Shown here piece after piece: positions 844-19,023 of a stretch of DNA of 64,000 nucleotides. Origin of the DNA: Selenomonas sp. F0473. Its GTDB lineage: Bacteria > Bacillota > Negativicutes > Selenomonadales > Selenomonadaceae. The notes beneath the pieces were generated by a model, which was not told the DNA's origin, did not search any database, and was given only the letters and a program-made list of their open reading frames with translations. The first letter of the stretch is position 1. Every line of letters starts with the position of its first letter. The position numbers were made by a program, and so were the translations under genes. Location: assembly GCF_000315545.1 (NCBI RefSeq), contig NZ_JH992902.1:1072050-1136049 (forward strand), in the 5' to 3' direction.

Positions 844-3582
844 TTAAGGTTCCCGTGCGCATTGAACAAGCTGCGGGAAATACTTCTCTACCCGTGCTCG
901 GCGAGCACGCTCGAGCTCTTCGCGCCGTGCGAAAAGATCGCGGTAAGCTGCGATATACGTATCTACATGCCCCCCTATGAGGCGATGTTCCGCGACATAG
1001 CGATAGGCGTTCTCCGCAATCGCAGTTCGCAGATCGGGACGCGTGATAAGCAGCGACAGCTTCCGGGAGAATTCCCGTACATTCCGATAGATCATCCCCG
1101 TCTCGCCATCGCGCACCGTACGCTCATAAACGGTCGGCGAAGCGAGCGCCACGGCACCGTGCCCCGCCGACTCGATGAATTTCAGATCCGACTTCGCGCG
1201 GTTGAACGCGGTATCGCCGAGCGGCAGGAGCGCGATATCCGAGGCATGCAGCGCCGCCGTATAGTCCGCATAAGAGGCGACGGGATCGCCGTCGCGCTTT
1301 CCCCACACGAACTGTTTCCGCCGCGTTCGAAGGGTCTCATAAAAAGCGCGGTCCCCCGTCACGAGGAAGAAAAGGCGGTCCTCGTGCACGCGAATCGTCT
1401 CATTCAGGGCATCCATAAGCGGCGCCCAGTCGGCCCCGCGGTTCAGCGCGCCGAAGAACACGGTCACATCCCCTCCGCCGTGCGCATAGGTCCTCTTTTC
1501 CGGCAGCGCCGCAAGTTGATTCTCCATGAGCACAACATGCGGGTTAAATTCACGCAGATAGTCCGCAAGCACCGGCGTCGAGGTCTGCATCGCGGAGACG
1601 GCGCGAAAAGCGAAGTAATCGGATGCAGACAGAACCGTTCCGTCTTCCGGGCGGTCGTCTATTTCGTGCAGGATCAGATTCCCCCGCACAGCCGTTCGGG
1701 CAAAGAGCTCCACATTCGACGCGGTATCGGGAATGATCCGCCGCTCCATTAAAATAATACTGTTTCTTCTTTTAATAAATGTATCGAGCGTCAGCGGTGT
1801 GATATCGTCCCGCGTGCAGCCGCTCAGCGTGAGTGCTCCTAATGCCCGCATTGCGCCCAGCGGCGTGTCGAGGCGCACGTGCGCGCAAGCGGCAATCCGA
1901 TCCATTACCACGACGGAAAGAGGCTCTTCGTCCGTCTCATACATACGCCGCACGTCGGCATCCACCTGCAGCAGCAGCGCCTCGGCGCGCTCCGCATGCA
2001 CTTCGCGCAGCCGGACAAGCGCACGGTCATGATCCGCCGTCTCCGTGATGAATACACGGCGGCTCCAGTATGCCGCGATCAGCCTGCGCCACGCGATGCA
2101 GCGGCGGACGAGTTCCTCCGGTTCCTCCTCCGCAGATTCCTGCCGCTCGATGCTCAGCGGCCGCCGGAATACGGCGCAGCCGCCGCGTTCTAAAAGGGAC
2201 AGCCACGCGGCACAGGCGTCTGCAGGGCTCTTATCCGCCAAATGCAGGGGGATCAGATCTTCGCGTCGCACGAGCACGGCGCCCGCGGCTCCGATAAAAT
2301 TATCGCATTCCATGAGGATGGATCGTCCTGCCGCGGTCCCGTCCACGACCTCGCTGTCGCCGTAGATCGGCGGCATCCGCCGCGCAGGAATCGTGCATCT
2401 GCCGTCCGGCGCGAGCCGCGCAGCCATCGATGTCGCAAGGGCAATCTCCGGATGCTGCAGGAAGGCGTCCACCATGAGCGTCAGCTTGTCCGGCAGCAGA
2501 ATCTCGTCCGCTCTGCACCAGCCGACGTATCTCCCTTGTGCGAGACGAGCGAACAGCGCGCCGTACGTTTCCTCCGCCTGCGCGCCGGACACACGCACAC
2601 AGCGCAGGCTCGGGTCCCGCCGATATGCCTCCGGCAGCCGCTCGGTCAAGGGCTCCGTATCGGCGGCGCAGGCGACGATCTCGACATTTGGGTAGAGCTG
2701 CGCGCACGCCTCCCCCAGCATTTCGAAGAATCGCTCCTCGTCGTCGGGGACGCGCATCATAAGGCTGACGAGCGGCGCGCGCAGACGGGCGCTGCGGCAG
2801 GTAGCGGCAATAAGCGCGGGGTCGAGCCGTTCCTCGATGTCCATGAGTGCCGTATGCCACAGCGTTTCCGGCACGCCGACATCCAGCCCCCAGCGCTCGA
2901 GCAAGACGGCGCGCGCAGACAGACGCGCCATATCGTAGAGGTCGCAGACCTCCGCGCCCGCGTGCGGAAAATAGACCGGCACGCGCAGGAGGATGCGCCC
3001 CATGCATTTGAGACGCAGCGACAGGTCGATGTCCTCGCCGCCGGCCGCCGGAAAATCCTCGGAGAACCCGCCCGTCTGCACGAAGCATTCGCGCCGTACG
3101 AGCAGCGCAAAGTTTTCAAGAAAGAGGCTCTGTGTCGGCGCCCCTACGGTCTCCCGCAGCCATGTGCCGGCCGTTAGTCCATCTGCCTCCATACGCGCGG
3201 CGTTGAGATACTGCCACGCATACGCGGTACGGTTGCCGAACGGTCCGACCGCGCCGATCTCTGGCGCCATGCAGATCGTATCGAGCAGCGTGCGCAGTCC
3301 CTCCGCCCGTATGAGAACCCCTTCCCGCAGAAATAGGATATACGGCGCCGCGGCATCCGCCGCCCCCGCATTATAAAGGCGCGCAAGGCTTTCCGTCTCC
3401 GTCGTTAAAAGCGCGACATTCGCCGCCGTCTTTCGGTACCTCTTTGCCGCCGCAGGCGGAGCGGCAGCGACAATCTCCGCCCCAATTCCGCTTTCCGTAC
3501 AGGCGGCGCAGGCAGCGGCGAGGGTCGCGTCGAGGTACGCGCCCTCCTCGGTCGCCGCAACGACGATACGCAATACGTTCAT
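844..3582 (-). CDS. Large multidomain glycosyltransferase (GT2-GT2-GT-B)
   Basis: The 912-residue protein has three modules. Residues 1 to about 235 form a GT2-like domain (LRIVVAATEEGAYLDATL, then FLREGV in place of the usual DxD strand, and the acceptor-side GGEDIDLSLRL). Residues about 270-430 form a second GT2-like domain (WCRADEILLPDKL, where RADE occupies the DxD position). Residues about 560-890 look like a GT-B/GT4-type fold with SDIALLPLGDTAFNRAKSDLKFIESA and a C-terminal GET-GxIYRN motif. Similar multi-GT proteins occur in surface-glycan and flagellin-modification clusters. It is the last gene of the glycosyltransferase run. No clean terminator follows before the csp promoter. Donor and acceptor cannot be told from sequence. 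Confidence 0.85.
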   Translation of the reverse strand: MNVLRIVVAATEEGAYLDATLAAACAACTESGIGAEIVAAAPPAAAKRYRKTAANVALLTTETESLARLYNAGAADAAAPYILFLREGVLIRAEGLRTLLDTICMAPEIGAVGPFGNRTAYAWQYLNAARMEADGLTAGTWLRETVGAPTQSLFLENFALLVRRECFVQTGGFSEDFPAAGGEDIDLSLRLKCMGRILLRVPVYFPHAGAEVCDLYDMARLSARAVLLERWGLDVGVPETLWHTALMDIEERLDPALIAATCRSARLRAPLVSLMMRVPDDEERFFEMLGEACAQLYPNVEIVACAADTEPLTERLPEAYRRDPSLRCVRVSGAQAEETYGALFARLAQGRYVGWCRADEILLPDKLTLMVDAFLQHPEIALATSMAARLAPDGRCTIPARRMPPIYGDSEVVDGTAAGRSILMECDNFIGAAGAVLVRREDLIPLHLADKSPADACAAWLSLLERGGCAVFRRPLSIERQESAEEEPEELVRRCIAWRRLIAAYWSRRVFITETADHDRALVRLREVHAERAEALLLQVDADVRRMYETDEEPLSVVVMDRIAACAHVRLDTPLGAMRALGALTLSGCTRDDITPLTLDTFIKRRNSIILMERRIIPDTASNVELFARTAVRGNLILHEIDDRPEDGTVLSASDYFAFRAVSAMQTSTPVLADYLREFNPHVVLMENQLAALPEKRTYAHGGGDVTVFFGALNRGADWAPLMDALNETIRVHEDRLFFLVTGDRAFYETLRTRRKQFVWGKRDGDPVASYADYTAALHASDIALLPLGDTAFNRAKSDLKFIESAGHGAVALASPTVYERTVRDGETGMIYRNVREFSRKLSLLITRPDLRTAIAENAYRYVAEHRLIGGHVDTYIAAYRDLFARREELERARRARVEKYFPQLVQCAREP

Positions 3583-3586
3583 ATTG

Positions 3587-4537
3587 TCAGGATTTGAGGA
3601 GGCGCAGCAGGAGGAAGTTCGTATCCTTCATCTCCGAGGCGACGCGAACCGCGCGGTCCGTATCCCCCATATCGTGCAGGAGCACGGCCATGTTCTTGAT
3701 GCTGCTGTCGCAGCCCGGATCAATCTCCAGCGCCTTGGTCAGCAAGAATTTCGCGCCCTCATAGTCCCCCGCCATATAGGCGGCGCCTGCGAAGGCGTTC
3801 AGCGCGCGAACCTTCTCGTTCGGACGAATATCCTCGCCGAGAATCTTGGCCGCCGTTTCAGAGGCGTTCAGTTTGAGCGCCTTCTCTCCCGGGACCGCCG
3901 CCGATTTCGGTGCGGGAACTGCAACATCCTTCGCGGGCGGCACAGCCACATCCTTCGGTGCGGGCACCGCAGGCTTTTTGACCGCCGAGGGCGCGGGCAC
4001 GCCGACCGGAGCCGTACCGAGGCCGAGGAACGCCGCGAGATGCGGATACTTCGTGCGGGTCTCGGCGGGGCTGAGCCGCGCTTCGAGTCCTGCATAGCGT
4101 TCAATTGCCGCGCGCTGCGCCTCGGTCAGCACGTTCCCATGGGACGCCAATATATTGTCATAGACTTTAAGCGCGTCCTGCGTCCGTTTTTCCTTGAGGC
4201 AGATGCGGCCGAGAAGGATGCGCACGTCCACATTCTGCGGATCCCGCGTCAGCGTCGTCGTCACCCAGTCCGCCGCGCGCGTCGTGTCGCCCGTCTCAAA
4301 ATACGCGCGCGCAATATCGCCGAAGCATTCCTCCGGCGCTGTGCCCGCCGCAGTCATATCCGCAAACGCATTGATTGCGTCGGCATATGCCTTTTTCTCC
4401 ATATAGCCGCGAATGCGTGCCGCCTCGTTCTCCCGGTTCGTCATAGCGATCGTTCCTTTCCCTTTCCGCTTTCCTTCTTCTTTGCGGCGCTGCTGTTTTT
4501 GTGCGCGCTCCGCGTTGTTTTTCTTACGTTTCTTCAT
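3587..4537 (-). CDS. TPR-repeat protein in the glycosyltransferase operon
   Basis: The 316-residue product (from the ATG at 4537) has an extremely basic N-terminus (MKKRKKNNAERAQKQQRRK), TPR-like helical repeats at about 45-140 (YADAINAFADM, GDIARAYFETGD, NVDVRILLGRICLKEK), an Ala/Pro/Val/Lys-rich linker at about 180-225 with repeats of the type APKDVAVP, and a final TPR pair (AYMAGDYEGAKFLLTKALEIDP). It has no catalytic domain and probably acts as a scaffold for the neighbouring TPR-containing glycosyltransferases. The start overlaps the upstream gene by 14 nt. An alternative ATG at 4444 has the better ribosome-binding site (AAAGGAACGATCGCT) and would remove the basic tail. The basic tail resembles that of the 917-residue GT41 protein of this operon, which favours the longer form. 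Confidence 0.75.
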   Translation of the reverse strand: MKKRKKNNAERAQKQQRRKEEGKRKGKGTIAMTNRENEAARIRGYMEKKAYADAINAFADMTAAGTAPEECFGDIARAYFETGDTTRAADWVTTTLTRDPQNVDVRILLGRICLKEKRTQDALKVYDNILASHGNVLTEAQRAAIERYAGLEARLSPAETRTKYPHLAAFLGLGTAPVGVPAPSAVKKPAVPAPKDVAVPPAKDVAVPAPKSAAVPGEKALKLNASETAAKILGEDIRPNEKVRALNAFAGAAYMAGDYEGAKFLLTKALEIDPGCDSSIKNMAVLLHDMGDTDRAVRVASEMKDTNFLLLRLLKS

Positions 4538-6020
4538 TGAGATAGCGCTCCCATATCGTCTCGTATGCTTCTTCCATGTCCCGTACATACCGCGCGCCGT
4601 CCATCATGGGAGAGGCGCGCATCATGCGCTGCGCCGCGCCGTGCAGGGCCGCGAGGAGTTCTCCGTCCCGGGCGAGCAGCACCGCGCGCTCGACATAAGA
4701 TGCCGGCGTATCCGCAGCCAGCTCGCCGAGCCCCGCATTTTGCAGAATGCCCATGCCAAACCGCGCTCCATGGCGCGTTCCCGCCCGCGTGACGACGGGC
4801 AGCCCCATAAAGAGGGCCTCGCATGTCGTCCCGCCCCCCTGATAGGGGTAAGTATCGAGGATGATGTCCGCGTCGAGATAATCCCGCAGATAGTCCCGCG
4901 TCCCCGGACGCAGTTCGATCCGCTCCGAACTAAGGCCCGCACGCGCGGCGCGGCGCCGCATCCGTTCGACCGGTTCCATATTCGAATTCACATTCTTGAG
5001 CAGGAGACGGGCATCCGGCACGCGGCGCAGGATCTCCGCCCACAGCCGGAGCGTCTCATCCGTGATTTTGGAGAAGTTGTTAAAACTCCCGAATACCACG
5101 GGCGCATGCGCTCTGCGCACAATATTCTCATAAGGTGCGAACCGTTCCGGCGGTGTGAAGCAGAGATGCGTGCGCGGCAGGCGGAGAATCTTCTCAAAAA
5201 AGAGGGCCTCCATCCCCGGCGGATCACAGACGGGATCGCCAAGCACATAGTCCATTGCGGGCAGCCCCGTCGTATCGAAATAGCCGATGCCCGAGACCTG
5301 CACGGGGGCCGGCCGACATGCCGCGATCCGCAGCGTACGCCCGCCCGCCGTATGCCCCGCAAGGTCAAAGAGGATGTCGATCTCATCCGCATAAATCGCC
5401 GCTGCCGCCTCTGCAGGAGGCTTTCCCCCAAGACTCCGATAGCCGTCCACCATGCCCGCCAGCCAGTCCGTCACCTCATCGCCGCGCCCCCTGCCGACAT
5501 CATACAGATACACGGCAAAGCGCGCATGATCGTAGCCCGAAAAGAGCTGTACGGCGAAGTTCAGCACAACATGTTCCGAGAGCGAGGGCGAGACGTAGCC
5601 AATCCGGATTTTCTCCCGCCGCCGCTTTCCATGAGAGAACTGCGGCACCCCTCCGAAGATACGGGCACACGCGCCGTGTTCCTCCCGCATCTCCGCATCG
5701 GAGATATCCGCCGTATAGTGGAGCGTCATAAGATAGTTGCTGAGGAGTTCGGCGCGCTCGTCCTGCGGGGCGCCCTCAAGGTTCCAAGAGGAGCGCAGAT
5801 GCGGCAGCGCCGCCTCGAGTTCCCCGAGCATATAGAGCAGCTGCCCCGCCGTTGCGTGATACTTCCACCGGTACGCCGCAGGGAATAGATTATCCTCGCC
5901 CATCCGCATCAGCCGCGCGAGCGCCTCCTCGAAACGGTGCGCCGCGATCGCTTTTTGCACGCCGGCAAAGGCCGTGTCAAACGAATCCCTGTTCCGTTTC
6001 CCGGCGCGCCCAAATGTCAC
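4524..6020 (-). CDS. SPINDLY/O-GlcNAc-transferase-like glycosyltransferase (GT41)
   Basis: The 498-residue protein has a short helical TPR-like N-terminus (about 1-130) and a complete GT41 catalytic region. Visible family motifs are REKIRIGYVSPSLSEHVV (about 135-150, His present), DLAGHTAGGRT (about 220), RPAPVQVSGIGY, FNNFSKITDETLRLWAEILRR (about 310-330, with the Lys equivalent to the catalytic lysine of OGT) and the UDP-binding GGGTTCEALFMGLPVVT (about 392-408). Eukaryotic OGT and SPINDLY transfer GlcNAc or fucose to Ser/Thr, and bacterial members modify flagellins. The start is GTG at 6020 with GGAGGG 8 nt upstream, overlapping the previous gene by 44 nt. It is probably an active enzyme. 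The sugar is unknown. Confidence 0.88.
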   Translation of the reverse strand: MTFGRAGKRNRDSFDTAFAGVQKAIAAHRFEEALARLMRMGEDNLFPAAYRWKYHATAGQLLYMLGELEAALPHLRSSWNLEGAPQDERAELLSNYLMTLHYTADISDAEMREEHGACARIFGGVPQFSHGKRRREKIRIGYVSPSLSEHVVLNFAVQLFSGYDHARFAVYLYDVGRGRGDEVTDWLAGMVDGYRSLGGKPPAEAAAAIYADEIDILFDLAGHTAGGRTLRIAACRPAPVQVSGIGYFDTTGLPAMDYVLGDPVCDPPGMEALFFEKILRLPRTHLCFTPPERFAPYENIVRRAHAPVVFGSFNNFSKITDETLRLWAEILRRVPDARLLLKNVNSNMEPVERMRRRAARAGLSSERIELRPGTRDYLRDYLDADIILDTYPYQGGGTTCEALFMGLPVVTRAGTRHGARFGMGILQNAGLGELAADTPASYVERAVLLARDGELLAALHGAAQRMMRASPMMDGARYVRDMEEAYETIWERYLNEET

Positions 6021-8730
6021 GATAGCATCCCTCCATCTCGCGGATATAGCGCTCCTGATCCATCATGGGCGAAACCCTCATACGATCCCGCAGTTCCCTG
6101 TGCAGCGCGTCGAGGAGATCGAGATTCCCCGCCAGCATCACCGCCGTCTCCACATAGTCCGAAAGACGTTCGGAGGCGAGATCGCCGAGGCCAATGTTGG
6201 CGAGCAGACTGTAGGTAAAGCGCGTGCTGTGCCGCTCCGTATAGTACGAGACGACGGGCACGCCCATATAGAGAGCGTCGCACGTCGTACCGCCGCCCGG
6301 CCACGGGAACGTATCGAGCGCGATGTCCACATCGAGATAGCGCAGCATATAGTCTCGTGTCGCCCGTTCGAACTGCACACGGCTCATATCGAGCCCCAGC
6401 CTCTTCATACGGTCATGCGCGGCGCGCACCACGCCTTTCTTCGCATAGGCGGCATTTTTGAGCAGGAGGCGCGCCGTCGGCAGCCGCCGCAGGATCTCCG
6501 CCCATACCCGCAGCATCTCGTCCGTGATCTTCACATATTGATTGAACGAAGCGAGTTGGATATATCCGCGCCGTCGTGCGGGCGTCCCCTCGGATGCGGG
6601 GAGGTGCGTATACCCATTATAACAGAATTGACTCGTCAGGCGCAGTAATTTTTCAACAAAATATATGTCTGTGCCGGCCCCCGGCGGATCGCAGTACCGA
6701 TCCGTGACAAAGTAATCCACGGCGCGAAGCCCCGTCGTCGCCATATAGCCAAGCCCGGAGACCTGCACGGGCGCGGGTTTCCACGCGAGTGCGGGCAGCC
6801 CGCTCCGCGCGGTATGCCCCGCGAGATCAAAAAGGATATCCACCTCATCCGCATAGATCCGCGCGGCGATCTTCGCCGGCGCTGCCGCATCCGCCGAAAC
6901 ATCGCGCCACGCCGTCACCAGCGTCTTGAAAAACTCCGTATACTGATCCGTCTTTCCAAGGCTGTAGCAGTAGACCTCAAAGGAATCTCGGTCAAATCCC
7001 GCAAGAAACGGCCAAATGAAATACTGCATGACGTGCTCGCGAAAATCGCCCGAAATATAGCCGATGCGGATCTTTTCTTTTTTGCGGCGCCCCGTATGCG
7101 TATAGGGGCGGATTCCGGCAAAGAACTGCTCGTACCCCACGCTGCGTCGGCAGATCTCTGCCGGCGGCACGTCGACGGCGTTCATTGTCATGAGCGCCGT
7201 GCTGTAATAGGATCGCCGCATCAAATGATCCGAGGCGCATGCCGCATACATCTCCGCGTACCGAGCGGCCGCCGCCGCACCGAGGACATCCGCGCCATAA
7301 TCCGCGCATGCCTTGCACAGCGCCTCCCGCACCTCCGGCGAAACGGACAGCCGTTCCGCTTCGATCTCCGAGAGCCCCTTCTGTGCAAGCGCCACAAGCT
7401 CCGCCTGCGAACAGTACAGGCTCCCGCTCGCAATGGCAAGGAACAAACGCGCGCCTTCGCGCTCCGGAGGAACGCCCTCCGCGGCAAGCGCCCACCGAGC
7501 CGCGAGTACCTTTCGGTTCAAAAAGAAATATGCCCATGCGAGCGACATCCGCCCCGCGGGAGCGAGAGCACCGCAGCCGTCCAGGATACGCGCCTCATAC
7601 GCGACCCGCGCCCAATCCTTCGACGTCTCTGCCCGCATGAGCGCAGCCTCATGTTCCTCCACATGCGGGCGCTCTTTCACTCCAAAGAGCACACGGTCAT
7701 ACGCGCGCTCCACCGTAAACATATAGGCGCCGGAATCGGCAAGCGGGCTATCGTGCAGGTTCCACCGGAGCAGCTCGTGCAGCTCCGAGAGACGCGCCGC
7801 ATCGCGCAGCAGCACCCCGGCACGCACCGCGAGCGCCGACGTATCCGCCGCAATCTCCTCGTCCGGTTCCACCGCCGCGAGGATGCCCGCGGCATAAGCG
7901 CCGCCTGCAAACGGGTGCGCGGTGAGAAGCGGCACGGCATATTCCAACGTGCGGCAAATCTGTGCGGGATCGGCCGCGATCCCAATCGCAATGTCAAGTT
8001 CCTCATAGGAGATTTCGTCTGCAAGGAACAGCTCGGCCGCATCTGTGCCCATCTCCGCAGCGCGTTCAATGTCCGCATCGGTCAGCACGCCGCCGATCTC
8101 CGCGGGCAGAATCAGCCGCACGTCCGGAATGCTTGAGAAAAGCGCACAGCATAGAGCAACGATCTCTTCCCGCAGCGTCTCGTCGGCTCTCCCGACGAAA
8201 CCGATTGTCGCCGTGCCGCGCTCGAGGAGCGGCGTGCGGAAAACATAGTTCTTCGGAGGATCCAGCGGCGTATAGCAGAGCGGCACGAAATCCGCATATC
8301 CGTCCACGGAGGGCAGGGCATCCACAAGCTCCGCGGGCCGGCGCTCGGCGATCGAGACAAGATGCCGCGCGGGATGCGCTGCGAAAATCTCCCGGATCAG
8401 GGGAGGCGGCGCATCGGCAGAGAGGTCGACGAGAAGATCGATCGCGTCACGCCGTATGATCTCCGCCGCCTCCCGTGCCGTATACGCACCGAGGGTACGA
8501 AACGCCGCCGCTTCCTTTGCAAACAGCTCCGTATCCCCCTCCGGTCCCGTATGATAGGCATAGAGTTCAAAGCGTTTCCGATCCGCACCGAGGAAAAATG
8601 CCGGCAAAAAGGTACGCCATGCACCGCTCCCGAACGCATCGGAAAGATAGCCGACACGTATTTTCCTCGGCGCGTTATGCCGATGCGCGGCAGATTTTCC
8701 GCGATGTTTCTTCGCGCCCTTTTTCTTCAT
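5977..8730 (-). CDS. Double GT41 protein: degenerate N-terminal and intact C-terminal SPINDLY-like domains
   Basis: The protein has 917 residues counted from the ATG at 8730, which overlaps the preceding stop codon as ATGA and begins MKKKGAKKHRGKSAAH; the frame is open for 107 codons further upstream but that part is out-of-frame sequence of the preceding gene. Residues about 20-360 have a GT41 outline (RKIRVGYLSDAFGSG, LLVDLSADAP, FGVK end) but lack the His, the FNxxxK lysine and the GGGTTC nucleotide loop. Residues about 370-520 are TPR-like. Residues about 545-905 are a full GT41 domain with FREHVMQYF, DLAGHTARSG, FNQYVKITDEML and GGGTTCDALYMGVPVVS. The first half therefore looks like a non-catalytic pseudoenzyme fused to an active one. 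The 3' end overlaps the next gene by 44 nt. Confidence 0.87.
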   Translation of the reverse strand: MKKKGAKKHRGKSAAHRHNAPRKIRVGYLSDAFGSGAWRTFLPAFFLGADRKRFELYAYHTGPEGDTELFAKEAAAFRTLGAYTAREAAEIIRRDAIDLLVDLSADAPPPLIREIFAAHPARHLVSIAERRPAELVDALPSVDGYADFVPLCYTPLDPPKNYVFRTPLLERGTATIGFVGRADETLREEIVALCCALFSSIPDVRLILPAEIGGVLTDADIERAAEMGTDAAELFLADEISYEELDIAIGIAADPAQICRTLEYAVPLLTAHPFAGGAYAAGILAAVEPDEEIAADTSALAVRAGVLLRDAARLSELHELLRWNLHDSPLADSGAYMFTVERAYDRVLFGVKERPHVEEHEAALMRAETSKDWARVAYEARILDGCGALAPAGRMSLAWAYFFLNRKVLAARWALAAEGVPPEREGARLFLAIASGSLYCSQAELVALAQKGLSEIEAERLSVSPEVREALCKACADYGADVLGAAAAARYAEMYAACASDHLMRRSYYSTALMTMNAVDVPPAEICRRSVGYEQFFAGIRPYTHTGRRKKEKIRIGYISGDFREHVMQYFIWPFLAGFDRDSFEVYCYSLGKTDQYTEFFKTLVTAWRDVSADAAAPAKIAARIYADEVDILFDLAGHTARSGLPALAWKPAPVQVSGLGYMATTGLRAVDYFVTDRYCDPPGAGTDIYFVEKLLRLTSQFCYNGYTHLPASEGTPARRRGYIQLASFNQYVKITDEMLRVWAEILRRLPTARLLLKNAAYAKKGVVRAAHDRMKRLGLDMSRVQFERATRDYMLRYLDVDIALDTFPWPGGGTTCDALYMGVPVVSYYTERHSTRFTYSLLANIGLGDLASERLSDYVETAVMLAGNLDLLDALHRELRDRMRVSPMMDQERYIREMEGCYRDIWARRETEQGFV

Positions 8731-10269
8731 CGTATATCCCTTTCTTCCGCATCTGCCAAAGCACACCGGTACGCGCCTTCCAAGGCGCGCATATAGCCCT
8801 CTTGATCCATCACGGGCGAACGCTCCATCATCGATCGCAGTCCGCCGTGCAGCGCATCCAGCGTATCGAGATCGGCGGCAAGCCCTACGGCGCGCGCAAT
8901 ATAGTCCTCCGCCGTCTCTGCCGCGAGTTCCGCGAGCCCCGCATGAGAGAGCAGCGCATAGCCGAAACGCGTACTGCGCCGCGCCGCATAACGCGTCACT
9001 ACGGGGACGCCCATATAGAACGCATCGCAGGTCGTCCCGCCGCCGGGCCACGGAAACGTGTCGAGCGCAACGTCCACATCGAGATAGCGGTTCATATAGC
9101 CCGTATCCGCGGGTTCGAGGAGGACCCTGCCAAGATTAAAGTCAAGCCGCCGCAGCCGCTCCTCTGCCGCCGACCGCATCTCCGGGGCGAAAAACACCTG
9201 CGACTTGAGGAGCAGGCGCCCTCCCGGCACACGCGCTAGAATCTCCCGCCAAACGGCGAGCATCTCGTCCGTAAATTTCCGATACTGATTGAACACGCCG
9301 AACAGTATGTAACTGCGCCGGCGTGCCGGCGTTCCGGCAGAACGCGGCAAGCCGGCGGGCGGCACATAGCAGAACTGGCTGGGCAGGCGCACGAGTTTCT
9401 CCGTAAAATAGCGCTCATGTCCGGCCCCCGGCGGGTCGCAGGCCGCATCCGTGAGGAAATCATTCACCGCAGGAAGCCCCGAAGTCGCCGTGTAGCCGAG
9501 CCCCATCATCTGCACGGGCGCGGGGCGGCGCGCGAGCACGGGCAGCGCTCCTCCCGACGCATGTCCCGCGAGATCGACGAGCACATCAATCTCATCCGCA
9601 TAAATACGTGCCGCCGTCTCTGCGGGAGACGTATCTCCCATATCCCGCCACACGTATGCATATGGACGCAGCGCTGCCGTCACATCGTCCAGCTCCGCCG
9701 TCGTACTGTAGACATAGACCTCGAATCGGGTGCGGTCGCATCCCGTAAGCAGCGGCTGAACGAAATGCCGCATAACATTCCGGCGAAATATAGCCGACGC
9801 GAATCTTTTCATGACGATAGGGAGCGGCAAACGTGTACTGCGGCACATCTGCAAAGATCCTGCCATAATCGGAGTGCGCCGCAAAAAGCGCCGCTTCATC
9901 AACCTCCCACGCGTTCTGTGCGAGGAGAAACGAGCTGTACAGCCCCGCGTCCGTCGGCTCCTCCCTATAGGCGTCATAATAAAATTCCGCCGTCTGCGGA
10001 TCCCCGATCCGATACGCCGCAGCCGCACGCAGTCTCATGTATTCATGGCACATCTCCGAACGTCCCGCCGCGATATAATCTGCCGCCTCGCGGAGAGCGC
10101 GCGGCAGATCTCCCATCCGCTCCAGCGCATAGGTATGAAGATAGCGGATCATATCGTCCGCCGCACCTGTCCCAATCGCTTCCTCCGTAAGATGCAGTGC
10201 CTCGGCATAGCGCTCCGCCGTAAGCGCAGCGAAGATCCGGTCTTTCAGTGCCGCATAGGTTCTACTCAT
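8727..10269 (-). pseudogene. Frameshifted SPINDLY-like GT41 gene
   Basis: The N-terminal part (start ATG at 10269, MSRTYAALKDRIF, TPR-like helices) reads in one frame to the GT41 motif EKIRVGYISPE near 9790. The rest of the domain (VMRHFVQPLLTG, DLAGHASGGALP, FNQYRKFTDEML, GGGTTCDAFYMGVPVVT) continues in another frame to the stop at 8727. Sister genes have six residues between GYIS and VM (GDFREH or SPSLSEHV), but here only 7 nt remain, which implies loss of about 11 nt including the codon for the conserved His. This is a small deletion rather than a homopolymer error. Each half is otherwise intact and free of stops, so the mutation looks recent. Downstream coupling by ATGA at 8727-8730 is retained. 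Confidence 0.8.
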
Positions 10270-10295
10270 TCTATCGTCATCCCCCGCACGTGCCT

Positions 10296-11975
10296 TTACC
10301 CCTCCCGCATATCGGTACGCGATGCATATGCCGCCCACACCGTTTCATACGCCGTGCCGACGGCCGCACCGTAGGCGGTCGTATCCATCACGGGCGATGC
10401 CGCTGTCATATTGCGCAGCCCCGCATGGAGCGCATCGAGCGTCCGGGCGTCCTGTGCGAGGAGCACTGCGCGCTCAATATACTCCTCCGTCGTACGCGCA
10501 ATCAACGCCTGCGCGCCGATATTTTGGAGCAGCGACGCGCCGAACCTGCTCCCGAGGGTCTCCCCCGCCAGCGTCACCACGGGCACGCCCATGTAGAGCG
10601 CCTCACAGGTCGTCCCTCCGCCCGGATAAGGGAACGTATCGAGCGCAATGTCGATGCGGCGATACGCCGTGAGATAGTCCGCCGAAGCGCCCTCCGTTTC
10701 CACACGCTCTGCGGGGATGCCTGCCGCCGCAATCCGTCGCCATGCCTCCGCGGCACCGTCCGCGACGGAGAAGATCTCCGCCTTGAGCAGGAGGCGCGAT
10801 GTCGGTACGCGGTGCAGAATCTTTGCCCATACCCTCAGCACTGTGTCATTGACCTTGGTAAAATTATTCAGGCTGCCGAACACAATGGGCCGTCCCGCCG
10901 CCGGCGCATGTCCCGTCGGGGGCGGCGGGCGCAGCGGCTGCCAGCAAAAATGTGTCCGCGGCAGAACGAGCAGACGCTCGACAAAGCCCTCCTGCGCAGG
11001 TTCCGCCGCGAGTACGGGATCCGCAAGGAAATAATCCACCGCCTTCAGCCCGGTCGACGCGAAGTAACCGATCCCCGACATCTGCACCGGTGCCGGCCGA
11101 TACGCGAGGATGGGCAGCGTCCCGCCCGCCGTATGTCCCGCAAGATCCACGAGAATATCTATGCGATCCTCATAGATGAGGCGCGCCGCTTCCGCCGCAC
11201 CGCACCCCGTCAGGTTCCGAAAGCCTTCCACGCGGCAACGTACGCTCTCCGTGAACGCATCCTCCTCGTTCATTGCGTAGACGTACGTTTCAAACCGCGC
11301 GGTATCAAGCGCTGTAAAGAGGGCATACGAAAAGGAGAGGACGACGTGCTCCCGGACATCGGGCGAGAGATACCCGATGCGCAGCCGACGCTCCCTTGCG
11401 TCTTCGGGCACATGGGCAAACGGCGCCGTGTCGCTCAGCAGAGCCCCATACGCCTCCGCCGCGGCGCGCTCCTCGGCGAGTGTCTGCGGGAGATAGTGCC
11501 TGTTAAAGAGCACATTGCTCGCATTGAGTAGGCGCAGTGCCGGCTCCTGTGCCGCATCACGCGCATACGCATAGAACGTCACCGCCTCCTGCGCCCGCCC
11601 GAGAAAGCGCGCACACTGCCCCGCGAGGTTGAACACCTTCTCCGCCACAGGCGCGGGCATGGGGCGCCGCATCAGCGGGGACAGAAGCGTCAGCGCCGCG
11701 CGCCGCTCTCTCTGCATCAGATGAATACGCGCCCGGAGAAATATCGTATAGGGATCATCGGGGCGCAGGCGCGCACAGTCCTCCCACGCCGCAAGCGCCT
11801 CTTCCGCAGCGCCGCTCTCGATGCAGAGCGCGGTTAAAAGTCCGGCCGCCTCTCCCGGCGCGTCACGCCGAAGCAGCGCGATATCTGCCTTAGCGCGCGT
11901 TCTATCCCCTCGCTCGAGCGCATCATAGATCCGTGTGCGCAGGGCCTCTACGTCTGCCGACGCCTGTGCCGTCAT
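10296..11975 (-). CDS. SPINDLY/O-GlcNAc-transferase-like glycosyltransferase with TPR N-terminus (GT41)
   Basis: The 559-residue protein starts at the ATG at 11975 behind AAGGAGAACAC and overlaps the previous stop codon as ATGA; 65 further open codons upstream are not used. Residues 1 to about 190 are TPR-like helices (LRRDAPGEAAGLLTALCIESG, AWEDCARLRPDDPYTIFLRARI). The catalytic region has RLRIGYLSPDVREHVVL (about 197-213), DLAGHTAGGTLPILAYRPAPVQ (about 275-300), FNNFTK-type GSLNNFTKVNDTVLRVWAKIL (about 365-390, Lys present) and GGGTTCEALYMGVPVVTLAG (about 452-472). It is probably an active O-glycosyltransferase. Of the four GT41 genes it is the closest to flagellin. The evidence is from family motifs, and donor specificity is unknown. 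Confidence 0.88.
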   Translation of the reverse strand: MTAQASADVEALRTRIYDALERGDRTRAKADIALLRRDAPGEAAGLLTALCIESGAAEEALAAWEDCARLRPDDPYTIFLRARIHLMQRERRAALTLLSPLMRRPMPAPVAEKVFNLAGQCARFLGRAQEAVTFYAYARDAAQEPALRLLNASNVLFNRHYLPQTLAEERAAAEAYGALLSDTAPFAHVPEDARERRLRIGYLSPDVREHVVLSFSYALFTALDTARFETYVYAMNEEDAFTESVRCRVEGFRNLTGCGAAEAARLIYEDRIDILVDLAGHTAGGTLPILAYRPAPVQMSGIGYFASTGLKAVDYFLADPVLAAEPAQEGFVERLLVLPRTHFCWQPLRPPPPTGHAPAAGRPIVFGSLNNFTKVNDTVLRVWAKILHRVPTSRLLLKAEIFSVADGAAEAWRRIAAAGIPAERVETEGASADYLTAYRRIDIALDTFPYPGGGTTCEALYMGVPVVTLAGETLGSRFGASLLQNIGAQALIARTTEEYIERAVLLAQDARTLDALHAGLRNMTAASPVMDTTAYGAAVGTAYETVWAAYASRTDMREG

Positions 11976-13450: not shown

Positions 13451-16400
13451 TGTATCAGCTCCATCAGTTCCCGCGCCTTCCGATTGTTCGGTTCCGCCGC
13501 AAGCGCCCGGGCGAGATACGCGCACGCTTCTTCCCTCCGGCCGAGCGTAAGATAGGCCCGCCCCGTCTCGTAGAGATACGCCGCATCCTCCGTTCCTCCC
13601 GCTTCGATATAAAAGAGATATGCGCGCAGCGCCGCCGTACGGCGCCCCGCCGCGGCAAAGGCCCGCGCAAGCGCCAGCACATGCGGCGCGCCGTACTCCG
13701 CCGCACAGCAAACGATACGCGCCGCCTGCGCCTCGTCCGCATGTCGGACGAACGCATCGACGGCCAACGCATAGCCCTCTGTACTCTGCGGAAGAGGTAC
13801 GGCATCCGGCTCATCGTAATGCCGCCAAAACGCACGCAGTACGTCCGGCAGCAGTGCCCGCAGGCGTCGATAGAGATGCCGACCATCCGGACTTTCCTCC
13901 CGCGCAAGCCGCGGAAGCATCTCCGGTATCTCCCGCACATCGCCCGCAAGCGATGCGGTCAGATACGCCGCCTGCTCCTCCGGCGAACGCGTATGCAGCT
14001 CCTCATAGATTTGCGGCAGGTCGCATGCATGTCCCGTCTCCCGCTCCCATGTATCCGCGGCCTCTTTGGCAAGGGCGCGCCAGCCGAACCCATCGGCAAA
14101 GCGGTAAAGGTAGAGGAGCGTGTCGCTGTCCGTTCCAATGCGCGTGCGCATCTCTCTTAGAATACGCGCCGGCGGCTCGCTCTCATGCAGCTCCGCATAA
14201 ACGTCGAGCGCCGCCTCGCGCGCTCCTCCGGCATCAAAGGCATCCGCAAGCGCCGCCTCCGCCGCCGCGGCATCACGCTCTATCATGAGCAGCCGCGCAC
14301 GCGCTGCGGCAACCTCCCCCGCCCACGCGCCGAACGCGGAACTCTCCCCGCTCTCATCCTCGGGTATCTCATAGAGATCCAGTGCCCGTGTGAGTTCGGT
14401 GAATGCCGCATCGTTCCCTACGGCGGCATAGAGCAGCCCCAGCCGCCCGTGAAAATCGGGCAGGAGCGGGAACGCGCGGCACGCCTGTTCCGCTGCGGCA
14501 ATCTGCTCTGCAAGGGGCGTCTCCTCCCGCTCCATACAGTCGAGCAGGAGATGATAGAGCCTGCTCTGCGCCCCCACGGACCGCACTTTTTCGGCAAGCG
14601 CCTCCCGCGTATAGAGGAGTGCGGCGGCATACTGCCCGAGCCCGTAATAGGTATCCGCAAGGTAACGATAGTCCCCGGGCCGAATGCCTTTTTGCTCAAT
14701 TTCTGCGGAAAGCAGCGCGAGATTGCGCGTATGTTTGGCATACATGCGCCCGGCGGAGTAGCCCACATGCCGGATGGCGAGCGCTGCGGGCTCCCGGTAG
14801 AGGACGGGTTCCCCCGCCGTCTTTTGCAGACGCTCGTGGACGCGCCCTTCATAAAACAGCCCGCGGCCAAGCCGCACGAGACGCACATGCGGCGCACGTC
14901 CGATCTCGCGGTTGCCGTCGTCCTCATCCACATGCACGATCGGCAGCAGCACCGCGTCAACCGTCGGCATCAGTACGTCCATCATCGCGAGATAAGGGCG
15001 CGCTTCATCGGGGTCGACAAAGGTCTCATCCGCATCGAGCACCGCCGCCCATCCTCCGGATGCATGTGAGAGCACGGCATTACGCGCGGCGGCAAAATCA
15101 TCGCCCCATGCAAAATCATAGACCTCCGCCCCCGCGCCTGCGGCGAGTGCCCGCGTCCCATCCGTCGATCCCGTATCGAGAACGATTCGCACATCGGCAT
15201 ATGCGGCCGCATTCGCAAGCCACGTTTTCATATCGCGCAGATCATTTCGTACAAAAACGCAGGCGGAAATCCGAACCTCCGCCTCATGTGCGTGGATCTG
15301 CCGCCACAGTGCCGCGCGGCGCTCCAGCTGCTCTGCCATCTCCGCCGTAAAATCCGACGGGTTGAGACCCTCCCGCTGCGGCACAATGCGCAGCGCCGTC
15401 TCCGCCGCCCGAATCGCCGCCGCATAGTCATACGATGCCGCGCAGGCCTCCGCGAGCTCCGCGTGCATTTCCGGGAGCTCCGGGAAGTCCTCGGCCGCGC
15501 GCGCGGCAATCGCGCGCCGCTCTTCCCGCATCTGCGGATGTGTTCCGTAGATATGCAACAGGATCCGATAGGAAGAACTTGCATAGACCGTATGCTGCCG
15601 TCCGCGCTCAATATCGCGCAGCGCATAGCGCTCCGCCATGCGCGCATCCCCGAGCCGGTCATACGTCTCCGCGAGATAGCGCCAGCAGCGCTCCGGCTGC
15701 TCGCCGGCCTCCATCTCCGCCAGCAAAAGCCGCAGATTGCGTTTCCCCTTTGCCCGCGTCAGTTTTTCCGAATAGCCCGTATGGATGAGCAGGAGCCGCT
15801 CCGCCGCCACCGTCTCATAAGACGTAATCACGCCGTCTGCATCGCGCAGCTCCTCGTGGATACGGCCGACATAGCGGCGCCCTTCCGCGGATTTGAAAAT
15901 GCGAGGCGCAGGCGCCTCGAGCAGCACCGCCCCCGTATCCTCGTCGATGTTGCGCAGCGGGACGAGGAGCATCTGCGTTCCGCGCGCCGCCGCCTCCTCA
16001 ACGACTGCACGCAGACGGCGCGCCGCCCCGGATGCAAAATATTCGTCCGCGTCGAGAAATACGACCCAATCTCCGTGGGCATGAGAAAGCGCCGCATTGC
16101 GCGCCGCCGCGAAGTCGTCCGCCCATGCGAAATGATAGACCCGAGCCCCGAGGGCCGCCGCAGTATCCGCAGAATTATCCGCAGACCCCGTATCCACAAC
16201 GATGAGCTCGTCCACATAGGAACGCAGACGCTCGATTGATTTTTTCAGATGCTCGGCATCGTCGCGTACGATATAGCATGCGGTCAGCCGCAGCGCCGCC
16301 GGCTTCTCGTTCCGTTTCTCCTCCGAGCTGCGGTATATACGCGCCTTTTCCGACCAATGCGCCGCACTCTCCGCATCGCCTAGATGCGTATATATCTGCG

Positions 16401-17385
16401 CCATACGCTCGGCAACGAGTGCCGCCACACTGCGATTAAAAAACGAATCGTCCCGCCGGACACCTATGGCGCTCTCATACCGCTCCATCGCCGCAACGAA
16501 ACTCGCAAGTGCCCCCTCATAACTCCCGAGACCGCAGAGCACCATCCCGCGCTCAGCGTAAAAATCCGGCAGATCCGGATAGCCGGCAAGCGCCGCATTG
16601 ACGATTGTCAGCATTTCCTCATCCGGATAATGCAGCGCGCGCATGGACTCGATCACTTGATGATAGATTTTACTCCGTCCGCCGATGATGACCATATCGC
16701 TCGAAAGGACTTCTGCCGAGAGTGCAAGAACGCGCCGATAATCCTTCAGCCAAAAATAACAGTCGGCGAGATATGCCGCATGCCACGGCTTACGCCCGTG
16801 CTCCTTGGCATCTGCTTCGAGCATGGAGATATTGCGGCGTACCTTCTCCGCGCTCCGTGCCGTCATATATCCCGTGTGCCCGCATGCAAGGCGTTCGTCC
16901 GCGTAGCAGAGTGCTCGCACCGCACCGTCGCGCCGCACGGCCTGCTCATGGATCTTCCCTTCGTACAGCATCGCATTGCCCCGCAGAACGCGCGGCAGGA
17001 TATCGGTTATCATATCGTTGTGATCGTCGATGGATAAATAATGTTCCATACGCACCATGATGATGTCCCACGGCGGCGTCTGTCCCGCATAGGCCTCTAT
17101 AGCGGAGCGCACCTGCTCCGGGTGCAGGAAATATTCGTCCGCATCAAGGAAAATAATGAAATCGCCGCCCGCCTGCTCAAGTGCAAAATTCCGCGCCGCC
17201 GCGAAATCATCGCGCCATGAAAAATCATAGAGAGCGGTATGAAACTCCCCCGCTGCCGCCGCAACATTCGCATCTCCCGCCGTAGAAACGACGACGATCT
17301 CGTCCGCCGCTGCCGCGACACTCGCAAGAGAGCGGCGCAGATCATCCGCTTCGTCCTTCACAATATAGCAGGCGGAGATCTTCAT
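13447..17385 (-). CDS. Giant triple GT2-TPR glycosyltransferase
   Basis: The 1312-residue protein contains three tandem GT2 units, each starting with the same strand (ISACYIVKDE at residue 2, LTACYIVRDD at about 367, ISACVFVRND at about 704) and each with its own DxD segment (FLDADEYF, FLDADEYF, VLDADETF) and an HxGY motif. Helical TPR-like stretches separate the units and fill residues about 930-1312. The third unit has LDADETF in place of LDADEYF. The first ATG (17394) sits directly on the GAAAGG Shine-Dalgarno; the ATG at 17385 is 9 nt from it and is preferred. It is the first gene of the operon, behind a TTGCCA-N17-TATAAT promoter. Three active sites in one chain suggest stepwise assembly of a short glycan or modification of several sites. 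Confidence 0.88.
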   Translation of the reverse strand: MKISACYIVKDEADDLRRSLASVAAAADEIVVVSTAGDANVAAAAGEFHTALYDFSWRDDFAAARNFALEQAGGDFIIFLDADEYFLHPEQVRSAIEAYAGQTPPWDIIMVRMEHYLSIDDHNDMITDILPRVLRGNAMLYEGKIHEQAVRRDGAVRALCYADERLACGHTGYMTARSAEKVRRNISMLEADAKEHGRKPWHAAYLADCYFWLKDYRRVLALSAEVLSSDMVIIGGRSKIYHQVIESMRALHYPDEEMLTIVNAALAGYPDLPDFYAERGMVLCGLGSYEGALASFVAAMERYESAIGVRRDDSFFNRSVAALVAERMAQIYTHLGDAESAAHWSEKARIYRSSEEKRNEKPAALRLTACYIVRDDAEHLKKSIERLRSYVDELIVVDTGSADNSADTAAALGARVYHFAWADDFAAARNAALSHAHGDWVVFLDADEYFASGAARRLRAVVEEAAARGTQMLLVPLRNIDEDTGAVLLEAPAPRIFKSAEGRRYVGRIHEELRDADGVITSYETVAAERLLLIHTGYSEKLTRAKGKRNLRLLLAEMEAGEQPERCWRYLAETYDRLGDARMAERYALRDIERGRQHTVYASSSYRILLHIYGTHPQMREERRAIAARAAEDFPELPEMHAELAEACAASYDYAAAIRAAETALRIVPQREGLNPSDFTAEMAEQLERRAALWRQIHAHEAEVRISACVFVRNDLRDMKTWLANAAAYADVRIVLDTGSTDGTRALAAGAGAEVYDFAWGDDFAAARNAVLSHASGGWAAVLDADETFVDPDEARPYLAMMDVLMPTVDAVLLPIVHVDEDDGNREIGRAPHVRLVRLGRGLFYEGRVHERLQKTAGEPVLYREPAALAIRHVGYSAGRMYAKHTRNLALLSAEIEQKGIRPGDYRYLADTYYGLGQYAAALLYTREALAEKVRSVGAQSRLYHLLLDCMEREETPLAEQIAAAEQACRAFPLLPDFHGRLGLLYAAVGNDAAFTELTRALDLYEIPEDESGESSAFGAWAGEVAAARARLLMIERDAAAAEAALADAFDAGGAREAALDVYAELHESEPPARILREMRTRIGTDSDTLLYLYRFADGFGWRALAKEAADTWERETGHACDLPQIYEELHTRSPEEQAAYLTASLAGDVREIPEMLPRLAREESPDGRHLYRRLRALLPDVLRAFWRHYDEPDAVPLPQSTEGYALAVDAFVRHADEAQAARIVCCAAEYGAPHVLALARAFAAAGRRTAALRAYLFYIEAGGTEDAAYLYETGRAYLTLGRREEACAYLARALAAEPNNRKARELMELIQ

Positions 17386-17411
17386 AGCGCACATCCTTTC
17401 ATATCGTAATC

Positions 17412-17440
17412 ATTATACGGTATAGCCGCAAAAATGGCAA
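17412..17440 (-). promoter_or_regulatory. Sigma-A promoter of the glycosyltransferase operon
   Basis: On the minus strand TTGCCA (17440-17435), a 17-bp spacer and TATAAT (17417-17412) lie about 25 nt upstream of the 1312-residue protein gene. No sigma-28 motif is seen here, so the operon is probably expressed independently of the flagellin switch. Confidence 0.7.
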
Positions 17441-17446
17441 AGGATT

Positions 17447-17624
17447 AGTGACACAATTATGCCCAAGATTGCGCATCGCATCTAGCCGTAGCCTAAGCGA
17501 CACGCAAGCTTGGATGCAGAACAAGGAACAAGAAAAATACACGCGAAGTCGTAGTTAAGGCTACGTCGAGCGCAGTTTTTTTCGCAGTGACACAGTTATG
17601 CGCCAAGATTGCGCGTCACGCTAC
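17447..17624 (+). repeat. Modular intergenic repeat, copy A
   Basis: Two near-identical 31-32 bp modules (17447-17477 and 17586-17617, AGTGACACARTTATGC... ) flank a core of about 108 bp. The core contains CAAGGAACAAGAAAAATAC and a palindromic centre (GTCGTAGTTAAGGCTACGTCG). The same core is found reversed at 39752-39890 and in a diverged form at 37611-37784. It fills the gap between the glycosyltransferase operon promoter and the flagellin terminator. Confidence 0.8.
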
Positions 17625-17660
17625 AAAAAAAGAGCCCCTCCCCGAAGGGAAGGACTCTTT
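17625..17660 (-). terminator. Flagellin terminator
   Basis: On the minus strand AAAGAGTCC pairs with GGGCTCTTT around an inner CCTTCCC-TTCG-GGGAGG hairpin and is followed by a T run. It is 32 nt past the flagellin stop codon. Confidence 0.9.
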
Positions 17661-17691
17661 CGGTAGTCCGTCGGTAAATGCCGAAGCGAGA

Positions 17692-19023
17692 TTACTTGAG
17701 GAGCGAGAGAACAGCGGAGCTGTTCTGGTTCGCCTGCGCGAGCATAGACTGCGCAGCCTGGAGCAGCACGTTGTTCTTCGTGTACTCCGTCATCTCCTTC
17801 GCCATATCCGCATCGCGGATCGTGGACTCGGAGTTCTGAACATTCTCGGACGCCGTCGTGAGGTTGGAGCTCGTGTAGGAGAGGCGAGTCTGGACAGCGC
17901 CGATATTCGCCTGCTCGTCGAGCGCCTTCTGGAGCGCCGTCTCAATCGCGTTGATCGCGGCGTTGGCCCGATCCTGCGTCTGGACGCTAATGACCGAACC
18001 GTCCGTGCCCTTCACGCCGAGAGCGAGCGAACGCATATCGGTCATGCTGACCTTGATCGCCTGGTTTGCCTTCGTGCCCGTCTGGAGCGTGAGAGAGTTG
18101 TCTTCAGACGCATTCTCCGCGCGGATACGCTCGTTGAAAGCGTCAAGAGACGTGTTCGCGGTCTTGCGGATCGCTCCCGTGCTGTCGGCAATCGACAGCG
18201 TGAACGACGAAACCTGCCAGGTCGTGCCGGCATGTGCAGCATTGATCGAAAGAGCCGACTTGTTATCGGCCGTGTAAACGCTGTTGCCAGCCTTATCCAA
18301 CCCGATCCAAGCGCCATGAGTCGCCGCGTCGGTGTCAACGAGAGCCGAGCCTGCGACAGACTCAGAGCCATTGTAGGCCGTCTTCGTAAGCAAGTCGGCC
18401 ATCGTGCTCGTACTGACCTGGAACGTCGTCGTGTAGGTCTTGCCCCCACGGACATACGAAACGGTGACCTTATCCGTCGACTGGATATTAAGGCTCTCGT
18501 TCTGACGGCTCTGGAGATCCGTCAGCTTGGATGTCCACTTGGACGCCGTACTCAACGAACTGTTCGAAAGCGTCGTGCACGTTGCTGTACCGATGCTGTT
18601 GCGCGAACCGTCGACGAGATACTTGCCGTTGTACGTGGCAAGCGCGTTGTCGTCGATCTGGTCAACCATCTGGTTGATCTCTTTCTGGATCGTGCGACGG
18701 TCCTCGTCGGTATTCGTGTCGTTCGCCGCGTTGATCGCCTTTTCCTTCAGGGTCTTGAGAATCTCAACCGTGCTGGAGACGGCGCCCTCGGCGGTCTTCA
18801 TCATGCTGTTGCCGTTCTGGGTGTTCTGGTTGTCCTGATCGAGCGAACGGATCTGGACGCGCATACGCTCAGAGATCGCATAGCCGGAAGCATCGTCGCC
18901 GGCGTTGTTGATCTTCATGCCCGAAGAGACCTTCTGGAGGCTCTTTGCGAGCGAAGACTGGTTGCGGTTCAGGATATTCAGCGTGTTGACCGCCGACATG
19001 TTGTTTTTGACTACCATTGCCAT
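17692..19023 (-). CDS. hag: Flagellin
   Basis: The 443-residue protein has the conserved flagellin N-terminus (LNRNQSSLAKSLQKVSSGMK, INNAGDDASGYAISERMR) and C-terminus (ENVQNSESTIRDADMAKEM, NNVLLQAAQSMLAQANQNSS, VLSLLK) that form the D0/D1 domains. The middle (about 140-340) is rich in Ser, Thr and Gly (for example SIGTATCTTLSNSSLSTASK), which provides many candidate O-glycosylation sites. The ATG is at 19023 with GGGAGG 11 nt upstream. It is transcribed alone, from a sigma-28 promoter and a possible sigma-A promoter, with a long leader carrying CsrA-like sites, and it ends in a strong terminator. The next operon downstream encodes SPINDLY-like glycosyltransferases. Confidence 0.97.
   Translation of the reverse strand: MAMVVKNNMSAVNTLNILNRNQSSLAKSLQKVSSGMKINNAGDDASGYAISERMRVQIRSLDQDNQNTQNGNSMMKTAEGAVSSTVEILKTLKEKAINAANDTNTDEDRRTIQKEINQMVDQIDDNALATYNGKYLVDGSRNSIGTATCTTLSNSSLSTASKWTSKLTDLQSRQNESLNIQSTDKVTVSYVRGGKTYTTTFQVSTSTMADLLTKTAYNGSESVAGSALVDTDAATHGAWIGLDKAGNSVYTADNKSALSINAAHAGTTWQVSSFTLSIADSTGAIRKTANTSLDAFNERIRAENASEDNSLTLQTGTKANQAIKVSMTDMRSLALGVKGTDGSVISVQTQDRANAAINAIETALQKALDEQANIGAVQTRLSYTSSNLTTASENVQNSESTIRDADMAKEMTEYTKNNVLLQAAQSMLAQANQNSSAVLSLLK

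Follow-up and report, generated by a model that had tools for sequence, protein, structure and literature searches.

A putative flagellin O-glycosylation island combining GT2 and GT41 transferase genes in Selenomonas sp. F0473 and its relatives

GmaR and SunS are protein-modifying glycosyltransferases of family GT2. Listeria GmaR (PDB 22ao), a flagellin O-GlcNAc (N-acetylglucosamine) transferase, is also described as an anti-repressor. Arabidopsis SPINDLY (SPY; PDB 7y4i and 8dtf), of family GT41, has one catalytic domain and tetratricopeptide repeats (TPRs). In enterobacterial flagellin islands, transferases of both GT2 and GT41 (SPINDLY-domain) are used, each strain being said to hold one family only (De Maayer and Cowan 2016, PMC4875605). 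The type B flagellin glycosylation of Clostridium difficile proceeds stepwise with three glycosyltransferases, GlcNAc and rhamnoses, and GT41 is unmentioned in the passage describing it (PMC7142665). The present study concerns a stretch of 64,000 nucleotides of Selenomonas sp. F0473 (the window, positions 1,072,050–1,136,049 of the complete 2.07-Mb genome), in which the flagellin gene hag is followed on the minus strand by an island of eight genes, seven for sugar transferases (one of them broken) and one for a TPR protein. With a probability of about 0.88, this island builds O-linked sugar chains on the adjoining flagellin.

The presence of GT41 genes in flagellin islands is already known, whereas the coexistence of GT2 and GT41 in one strain differs from the pattern described for enterobacteria; in the window both families are found together, fused into multi-domain proteins, with a predicted dead GT41 domain in one gene, GT41c. 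The locus resembles the C. difficile system in the apparent use of several glycosyltransferases for stepwise building. GmaR is homologous to the single-domain protein GT2 (E-value 8.5e-33) and to domain 1 of the three-domain protein GT2x3 (2.6e-25), the latter differing from it by lacking the Asp of the DTG motif. Among solved structures, SPY comes closest to GT41a and GT41c in sequence and to the N-terminal half of GT41c in fold, but the tandem GT41 domains of GT41c and the mixed donor residues of its C-terminal half and of GT41d set the island apart. Among the papers listed by the literature searches, which left most subscription papers outside, nothing was found on these Selenomonas genes, on a dead GT41 or on enzymes assigned to the flagellin glycosylation of S. 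sputigena.

Linkage of the island to flagellin

Each of the 14 genus genomes has GT41 domains about 7–14 kb downstream of one of its two flagellins, and the linkage of hag and the island is more than chance. The gene order is the same in the corresponding regions of 13 relatives, which include S. artemidis, S. noxia, S. massiliensis, S. infelix, S. flueggei, S. felix, Selenomonas sp. FOBRC6, Selenomonas sp. oral taxon 892 and Centipeda periodontii. GT2x3, GT2, GT41c, the TPR gene and GT2-GT2-GT-B were present in 14/14 genomes, although damage was seen to GT41c in G011, to GT2x3 in S. noxia and to GT2-GT2-GT-B in S. artemidis, with no more than the last part of this gene recovered. In the S. 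noxia locus (L021, 15649–18513), domains 1 and 2 of GT2x3 are merged into one hybrid, apparently by internal loss. GT41a was found in 13 genomes and GT41d in 12, while GT41b is fused to GT41a in eight, broken in two and absent in four, so that GT41c is the only GT41 gene shared by all 14.

The survey was extended to 107 genomes of the family that are at least 90% complete, with the window proteins as queries and up to six candidates scored per genome. Flagellin was found in 101 genomes and GT2x3 in 93. Both were present in 93 genomes, flagellin only in eight, GT2x3 only in none and neither in six; a GT2x3 match was thus obtained in 93/101 flagellated and 0/6 flagellin-free genomes. Fisher's exact test gave 1.7e-6 by genome and 3e-4 by genus (25 with both, three with neither), the genus-level value being the fairer one because relatedness makes the per-genome value too strong. 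Linkage was counted with one best GT2x3 place per genome, available for 92 of the 93, and a flagellin place listed for 81 of the 101. Among the 75 genomes with both places listed, glycosyltransferase genes stood beside flagellin in 52, with GT2x3 at most 15 kb from a listed flagellin on the same strand, a median gap of 185 bp and GT2x3 downstream in 48; adjacency by chance is about 0.7–6.5% per genome for one to ten flagellins. Of the other 23, 22 lack a listed flagellin on the contig and strand that carry GT2x3 and one has the two 43 kb apart; many genomes are fragmented. In an even draw of 250 genomes of the class, with up to two first-look candidates scored per genome, all 80 GT2x3 matches at 1e-60 fell within this family. 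Of 22 islands of the family that were read, 20 were picked because GT2x3 lies near hag and are therefore no test of linkage. A GT41 unit is present in 19 of the 22 and absent from L129, L133 and L128, the contig of the last breaking off after 6.8 kb.

One genome (G071), which we take to be S. sputigena ATCC 35185, carries the island after a flagellin of 437 amino acids. Work by Rath in 2018 is said to have described a 437-residue S. sputigena flagellin with rhamnose- and GlcNAc-linked O-glycans at T149, S182, T199, T259 and S334; to our knowledge, that work assigned no enzymes to these glycans. The residues of the G071 flagellin at the five positions are T, S, T, T and S, which supports both the reported sites and the identification of the genome. 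When hag was aligned to these sites, S182, T199 and T340 carried a hydroxyl group and C149 and A265 did not; three of five was judged too few for strong proof, and the sites are no more than consistent with modification. Flagellin of S. ruminantium is also reportedly heavily glycosylated (work of Haya, 2011), and strains named S. ruminantium (L051, L055) carry a syntenic island. Two papers that cite the 2018 work describe the flagella or flagellin of S. sputigena as heavily glycosylated, one with rhamnose-linked glycans (PMC13339959) and one with fucose as a major sugar (PMC10202936). The two cases are alike in family, syntenic flagellin and heavy O-glycosylation with deoxyhexose-containing glycans, as far as those sources go, and the island provides a short, ordered list of candidate genes, recurring across the family, for the S. 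sputigena glycans.

The central part of hag is rich in Ser and Thr (62 of 217 residues), compared to 45 of 230 in the second flagellin of the genome (Fisher p = 0.027, one comparison). Several claims of a preliminary description of this DNA are borne out by these results. The Ser/Thr-rich centre of the flagellin stands, and clusters consistently away from flagellin, which that description regarded as evidence to the contrary, were not seen for GT2x3 among the places listed. Its proposal of a dedicated flagellin O-glycosylation island is strongly supported by the observed synteny in the genus, the observed co-loss with flagellin in the family and the adjacency to the flagellin reported as heavily O-glycosylated in the genome taken as S. 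sputigena.

Transferase genes and the duplicated GT41 domain

The PF13844 domain and an OGT/SPY fold were found for the GT41 genes, and the four genes described earlier do exist as four loci; GT41b is frameshifted, leaving at most three intact, and GT41c holds two GT41 domains. At the positions of SPY H495, K665, K689, A731 and Y744, GT41a has H, K, K, A and Y. The K689/A731/Y744 triad is present in GT41a in 12 of 13 genus copies, the window included, and within the window in GT41a only. Judged by alignment, GT41a, the C-terminal half of GT41c and GT41d keep His495, Lys665 and the donor-loop residues of SPY and appear active, whereas GT41b and the N-terminal half of GT41c lack the residues of an active GT41. 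GT41b has Asn at H495 in 10/10 genus copies, broken ones included. At its break the window is 11 bases short relative to S. artemidis (L015), which has a lesion of its own, with 8 bases missing about 290 bases further on. A programmed frameshift is not favoured, as the lesion of the sister species is not the same and the gene is absent from four genomes. An N-glycosyltransferase of the HMW1C type was also considered and rejected, the sequence matches being weak (NCBIfam NGTferase at most 33.3 bits, cut-off 1000).

The N-terminal half of GT41c is predicted to be catalytically dead from its residue pattern. Gly (Ala in one) stands at SPY 495 in all 14 genus copies, and Pro (Ser in one) at SPY 689 in 13/13 aligned copies; in the 13 aligned species the His at H495, the Lys at K689 and the GGGTT loop are missing, and near K665 no Lys is conserved. 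The half has conserved motifs of its own, GxGRxRDLLP and VDLxDVCRAAxHGVP, and its ratio of nonsynonymous to synonymous substitution rates (dN/dS) is 0.20–0.46. Comparison of four species pairs indicates purifying selection on both halves of GT41c. A protein search with the N-terminal half, in which the best 7,996 candidates were scored, returned 24 relatives of 902–931 amino acids at 43–100% identity, the window's own protein included, and six far weaker ones. Its fold was taken from a model of this half alone, built from 31 sequences; a first AlphaFold2 model of the whole protein was poor (predicted local distance difference test score 62, low in the C-terminal half), with low Foldseek TM-scores. 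The tips of the GT41 tree include duplicate loci (for example L046 and L117), and degenerate sequences may attract each other in it. We tentatively suggest that GT41c is a fusion of a pseudoenzyme and an enzyme, in which a duplicated OGT/SPY domain lost its active site but stayed on as a scaffold for docking flagellin, thereby rendering the active half multi-site and substrate-dedicated, beside GmaR-type GT2 enzymes in one assembly line. If so, no conserved dead GT41 would have been described before GT41c, and the protein would show that acceptor specificity can be gained through a dead copy of an enzyme's catalytic domain, a point of interest for the debated choice of substrates by OGT/SPY enzymes.

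For the protein GT2, homology to GmaR is accompanied by the DTGS and DxD motifs. Domain 2 of GT2x3 matches the SunS-like structure 7msk (1e-16) and SunS 7msp (3.7e-12). Domains 2 and 3 of the window protein keep DTGS and DxD, while in domain 1 (window 16786–17385) the nucleotide-loop DTG is replaced by (S/A)T(A/S/C) in all 13 genus proteins with a full domain, which may make it another degenerate transferase domain of the island. Scores against the SunS peptide S-glycosyltransferase family (NCBIfam TIGR04195) were 64.6 and 131.8 bits at a cut-off of 350, indicating related proteins that are not members. Since they are GmaR/SunS-like, the GT2 proteins may themselves attach sugars to protein; direct transfer is, on these similarities, as likely by GT2 as by GT41, and the order proposed in the preliminary description, with GT41 acting first and GT2 extending, is not retained. 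GT2-GT2-GT-B has a weak match to chondroitin synthase (E-value 0.0026). No sugar-synthesis or methyltransferase domain was found above the Pfam cut-offs in the window island; an NTP_transf_3 match barely above its cut-off (28.4 against 27 bits) falls on a GT2 domain.

From the observed gene content and residue patterns and the predicted folds, we infer the activities, donors and sites of the following scheme. Flagellin would be modified in the cytoplasm, before export. Ser/Thr residues in its centre would receive GlcNAc directly from the GmaR-like GT2 domains and a small hexose directly from GT41a, GT41c and GT41d; this hexose is most likely rhamnose, though perhaps fucose in certain species. 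GT2-GT2-GT-B would lengthen the chains. Flagellin would meanwhile be held by the TPR protein and by the dead first half of GT41c, allowing modification of several sites per encounter.

Donor sugar and alternative explanations

The residue at the position of human OGT Cys917 and SPY Y744 is argued in two studies to decide whether GlcNAc fits (PMC9715652, PMC10027727). GT41a, the C-terminal half of GT41c and GT41d have Tyr or Trp there, which would exclude GlcNAc, and gmd/fcl and rmlC/rmlD are present elsewhere in the genome; the earlier claim that the sugar must be UDP-GlcNAc is thus not upheld for the active-looking GT41 proteins. UDP-GlcNAc is the likely donor for the GmaR-like GT2 proteins. 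In the genome, gmd scores 542 bits (cut-off 415) and fcl 480 bits (cut-off 500, reached by no genome of the family), rmlD and rmlC are above their cut-offs, and a GDP-mannose pyrophosphorylase-like gene is below its own. RmlD was found in 14/14 genus genomes, in 103 of the 107 family genomes, in 91 of the 93 with GT2x3 and in five of the six without flagellin, and is in itself uninformative for the choice of donor. Fcl is patchy: in the genus it has no match in G003, G009 and G011 and a weak one (about 235 bits) in three more, so that GDP-fucose is not indicated in every carrier. Rhamnose is therefore the better general guess for the GT41 donor sugar.

That the GT41 enzymes are instead protein O-fucosyltransferases like plant SPINDLY, using the genome's own GDP-fucose, is suggested by the SPY triad of GT41a, by the clustering of gmd, the GDP-mannose pyrophosphorylase-like gene and fcl, and by the description of fucose as a major sugar of the S. 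sputigena flagellin glycans (PMC10202936). We regard this as unlikely, albeit the strongest of the alternatives: the three Fcl-less genus genomes all carry the triad, three more have Fcl at about 235 bits, another paper speaks of rhamnose-linked glycans (PMC13339959), and among the 19 islands with GT41 read outside the genus, Fcl accompanies A731 in six of 11 genomes and its absence in two of eight. As Fcl does not track the triad, GT41a was not accepted as a proven O-fucosyltransferase. Somewhat more doubtful still is a living N-terminal half of GT41c that binds another donor or a cofactor with rearranged residues; its conserved motifs and dN/dS values would agree with this, but the 13 aligned species lack the His, the Lys at K689 and the GGGTT loop and conserve no Lys near K665.

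It is improbable that the main targets of the island are exported proteins other than this flagellin (FlgK, FlgL, FliD or the second flagellin), its place by hag being due to co-expression alone. The genes upstream of hag do look like filament genes, and other GT41 genes of the genome lie away from hag; however, the same flagellin adjoins the island in 14/14 genomes, its counterpart in the genome taken as S. sputigena is the 437-residue flagellin, and the second flagellin lacks all five reported sites and is poorer in Ser/Thr at its centre. Least probable by far is a block of decaying remnants. GT41b is absent from four genomes and broken in S. artemidis as well as in the window, and GT41c, GT2x3 and GT2-GT2-GT-B are broken, merged and shortened in G011, S. 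noxia and S. artemidis, respectively; against decay, the other island genes are open in the window, purifying selection acts on both halves of GT41c, and the lead gene GT2x3 is kept in 93 of 101 flagellated genomes. Some observations do count against a dedicated flagellin O-glycosylation island. Given the eight flagellated genomes without a GT2x3 match, the island may not accompany all flagella of the family, and some of these eight absences and of the six joint ones could be misses, with at most six candidates scored. Three other GT41 genes of the genome have housekeeping genes as neighbours, at a great distance from flagellin, and the three hydroxy residues of hag at the reported sites are not clearly above expectation for a Ser/Thr-rich centre. 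Fucose is not pinned down as donor, given the SPY-like GT41a of the three Fcl-less genomes, and neither is rhamnose, RmlD being near universal even without flagellin.

Organization of the window

The features are collected in Table 1. On the minus strand the order is flgK, flgL, fliW, flaG, fliD, fliS, a small open reading frame (ORF) without a family match, hag, GT2x3, GT2, GT41a, GT41b, GT41c, GT41d, the TPR gene, GT2-GT2-GT-B and a cold-shock gene; the names flgK, fliW, flaG, fliD and fliS are presumptive, and FlgL was also matched in a search.

Table 1. Coordinates of hag, the island genes and the signals between them.
Feature	Position	Strand	Basis
hag, flagellin, 443 aa, predicted substrate	17692..19023	-	Flagellin_N 2.8e-35, Flagellin_C 1.9e-22 (Pfam)
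Terminator-like stem-loop after hag	17636..17654	-	Consensus match only
Interspersed repeat in the hag-island gap	17440..17630	-	40 matches in genome at E<=0.001, itself included
Promoter-like TTGCCA-17-TATAAT, for island	17412..17440	-	11/12 consensus positions; consensus match only
GT2x3, three GT2 domains and C-terminal TPR, 1312 aa	13447..17385	-	Pfam
GT2, GmaR/SunS-like, 492 aa	11972..13450	-	GmaR 22ao 8.5e-33, SunS 7msp 4.5e-17
GT41a, TPR-like N-terminus and SPINDLY-like GT41, 559 aa	10296..11975	-	SPY 7y4i 1.7e-69
GT41b, frameshifted near 9789	8727..10269	-	Two ORFs, 10338..9592 and 10028..8727
GT41c, 917 aa, degenerate GT41, helical linker and active-looking GT41	5977..8730	-	Pfam, residues, model
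GT41c N-terminal half, residues 20-350, predicted dead GT41 domain	7681..8673	-	Residue losses, fold
GT41c C-terminal half, residues 545-917, active-looking GT41	5977..7098	-	H, K, K, R, W at SPY H495, K665, K689, A731, Y744
GT41d, 498 aa	4524..6020	-	PF13844 1.9e-36; H, K, K, D, Y at same SPY positions
TPR protein, 316 aa	3587..4537	-	TPR_19 7.4e-19; in 14/14 islands
GT2-GT2-GT-B protein, 912 aa, candidate chain extender	844..3582	-	PF13524 6.1e-10; GT2 matches below cut-offs

The same-strand block from hag to position 844, with its triple GT2, GT2, TPR and GT2-GT2-GT-B genes, was confirmed by the ORFs and Pfam, with corrections in detail: eight genes rather than nine units follow hag, and they do so after 306 bp between the hag stop codon and the GT2x3 start, not at once. 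ATGA overlaps, thought to join most units, occur at three of the seven junctions (13450/13447, 11975/11972 and 8730/8727), the coordinates giving two longer overlaps and two short gaps for the others.

The second flagellin gene (C1:882112–883476, L031), with a product 63% identical to that of hag over the match, has no GT41 gene within its 19.5-kb locus and adjoins genes for 3-deoxy-D-manno-octulosonic acid (Kdo) and lipid A (LpxK, kdotransferase, cytidylyltransferase, DAHP-synthetase family). The three further GT41 genes of the genome, at C1:277381, 680188 and 1379618 (L028–L030), stand beside housekeeping genes, presumably in the dnaE, uvrA/uvrB and mnmE regions, judging by protein starts. 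In the metagenome-assembled genome RGIG6653 of a rumen member of the Selenomonadaceae, locus L095 holds five GT41 genes in about 10 kb and L105 four in about 6 kb; neither locus contains a flagellin match, which represents another use of the GT41 family. The interspersed repeat is about 135–190 bp long, with copies at window positions 17440–17630 and 39752–39888, and shows some foldback structure (z = −2.67).

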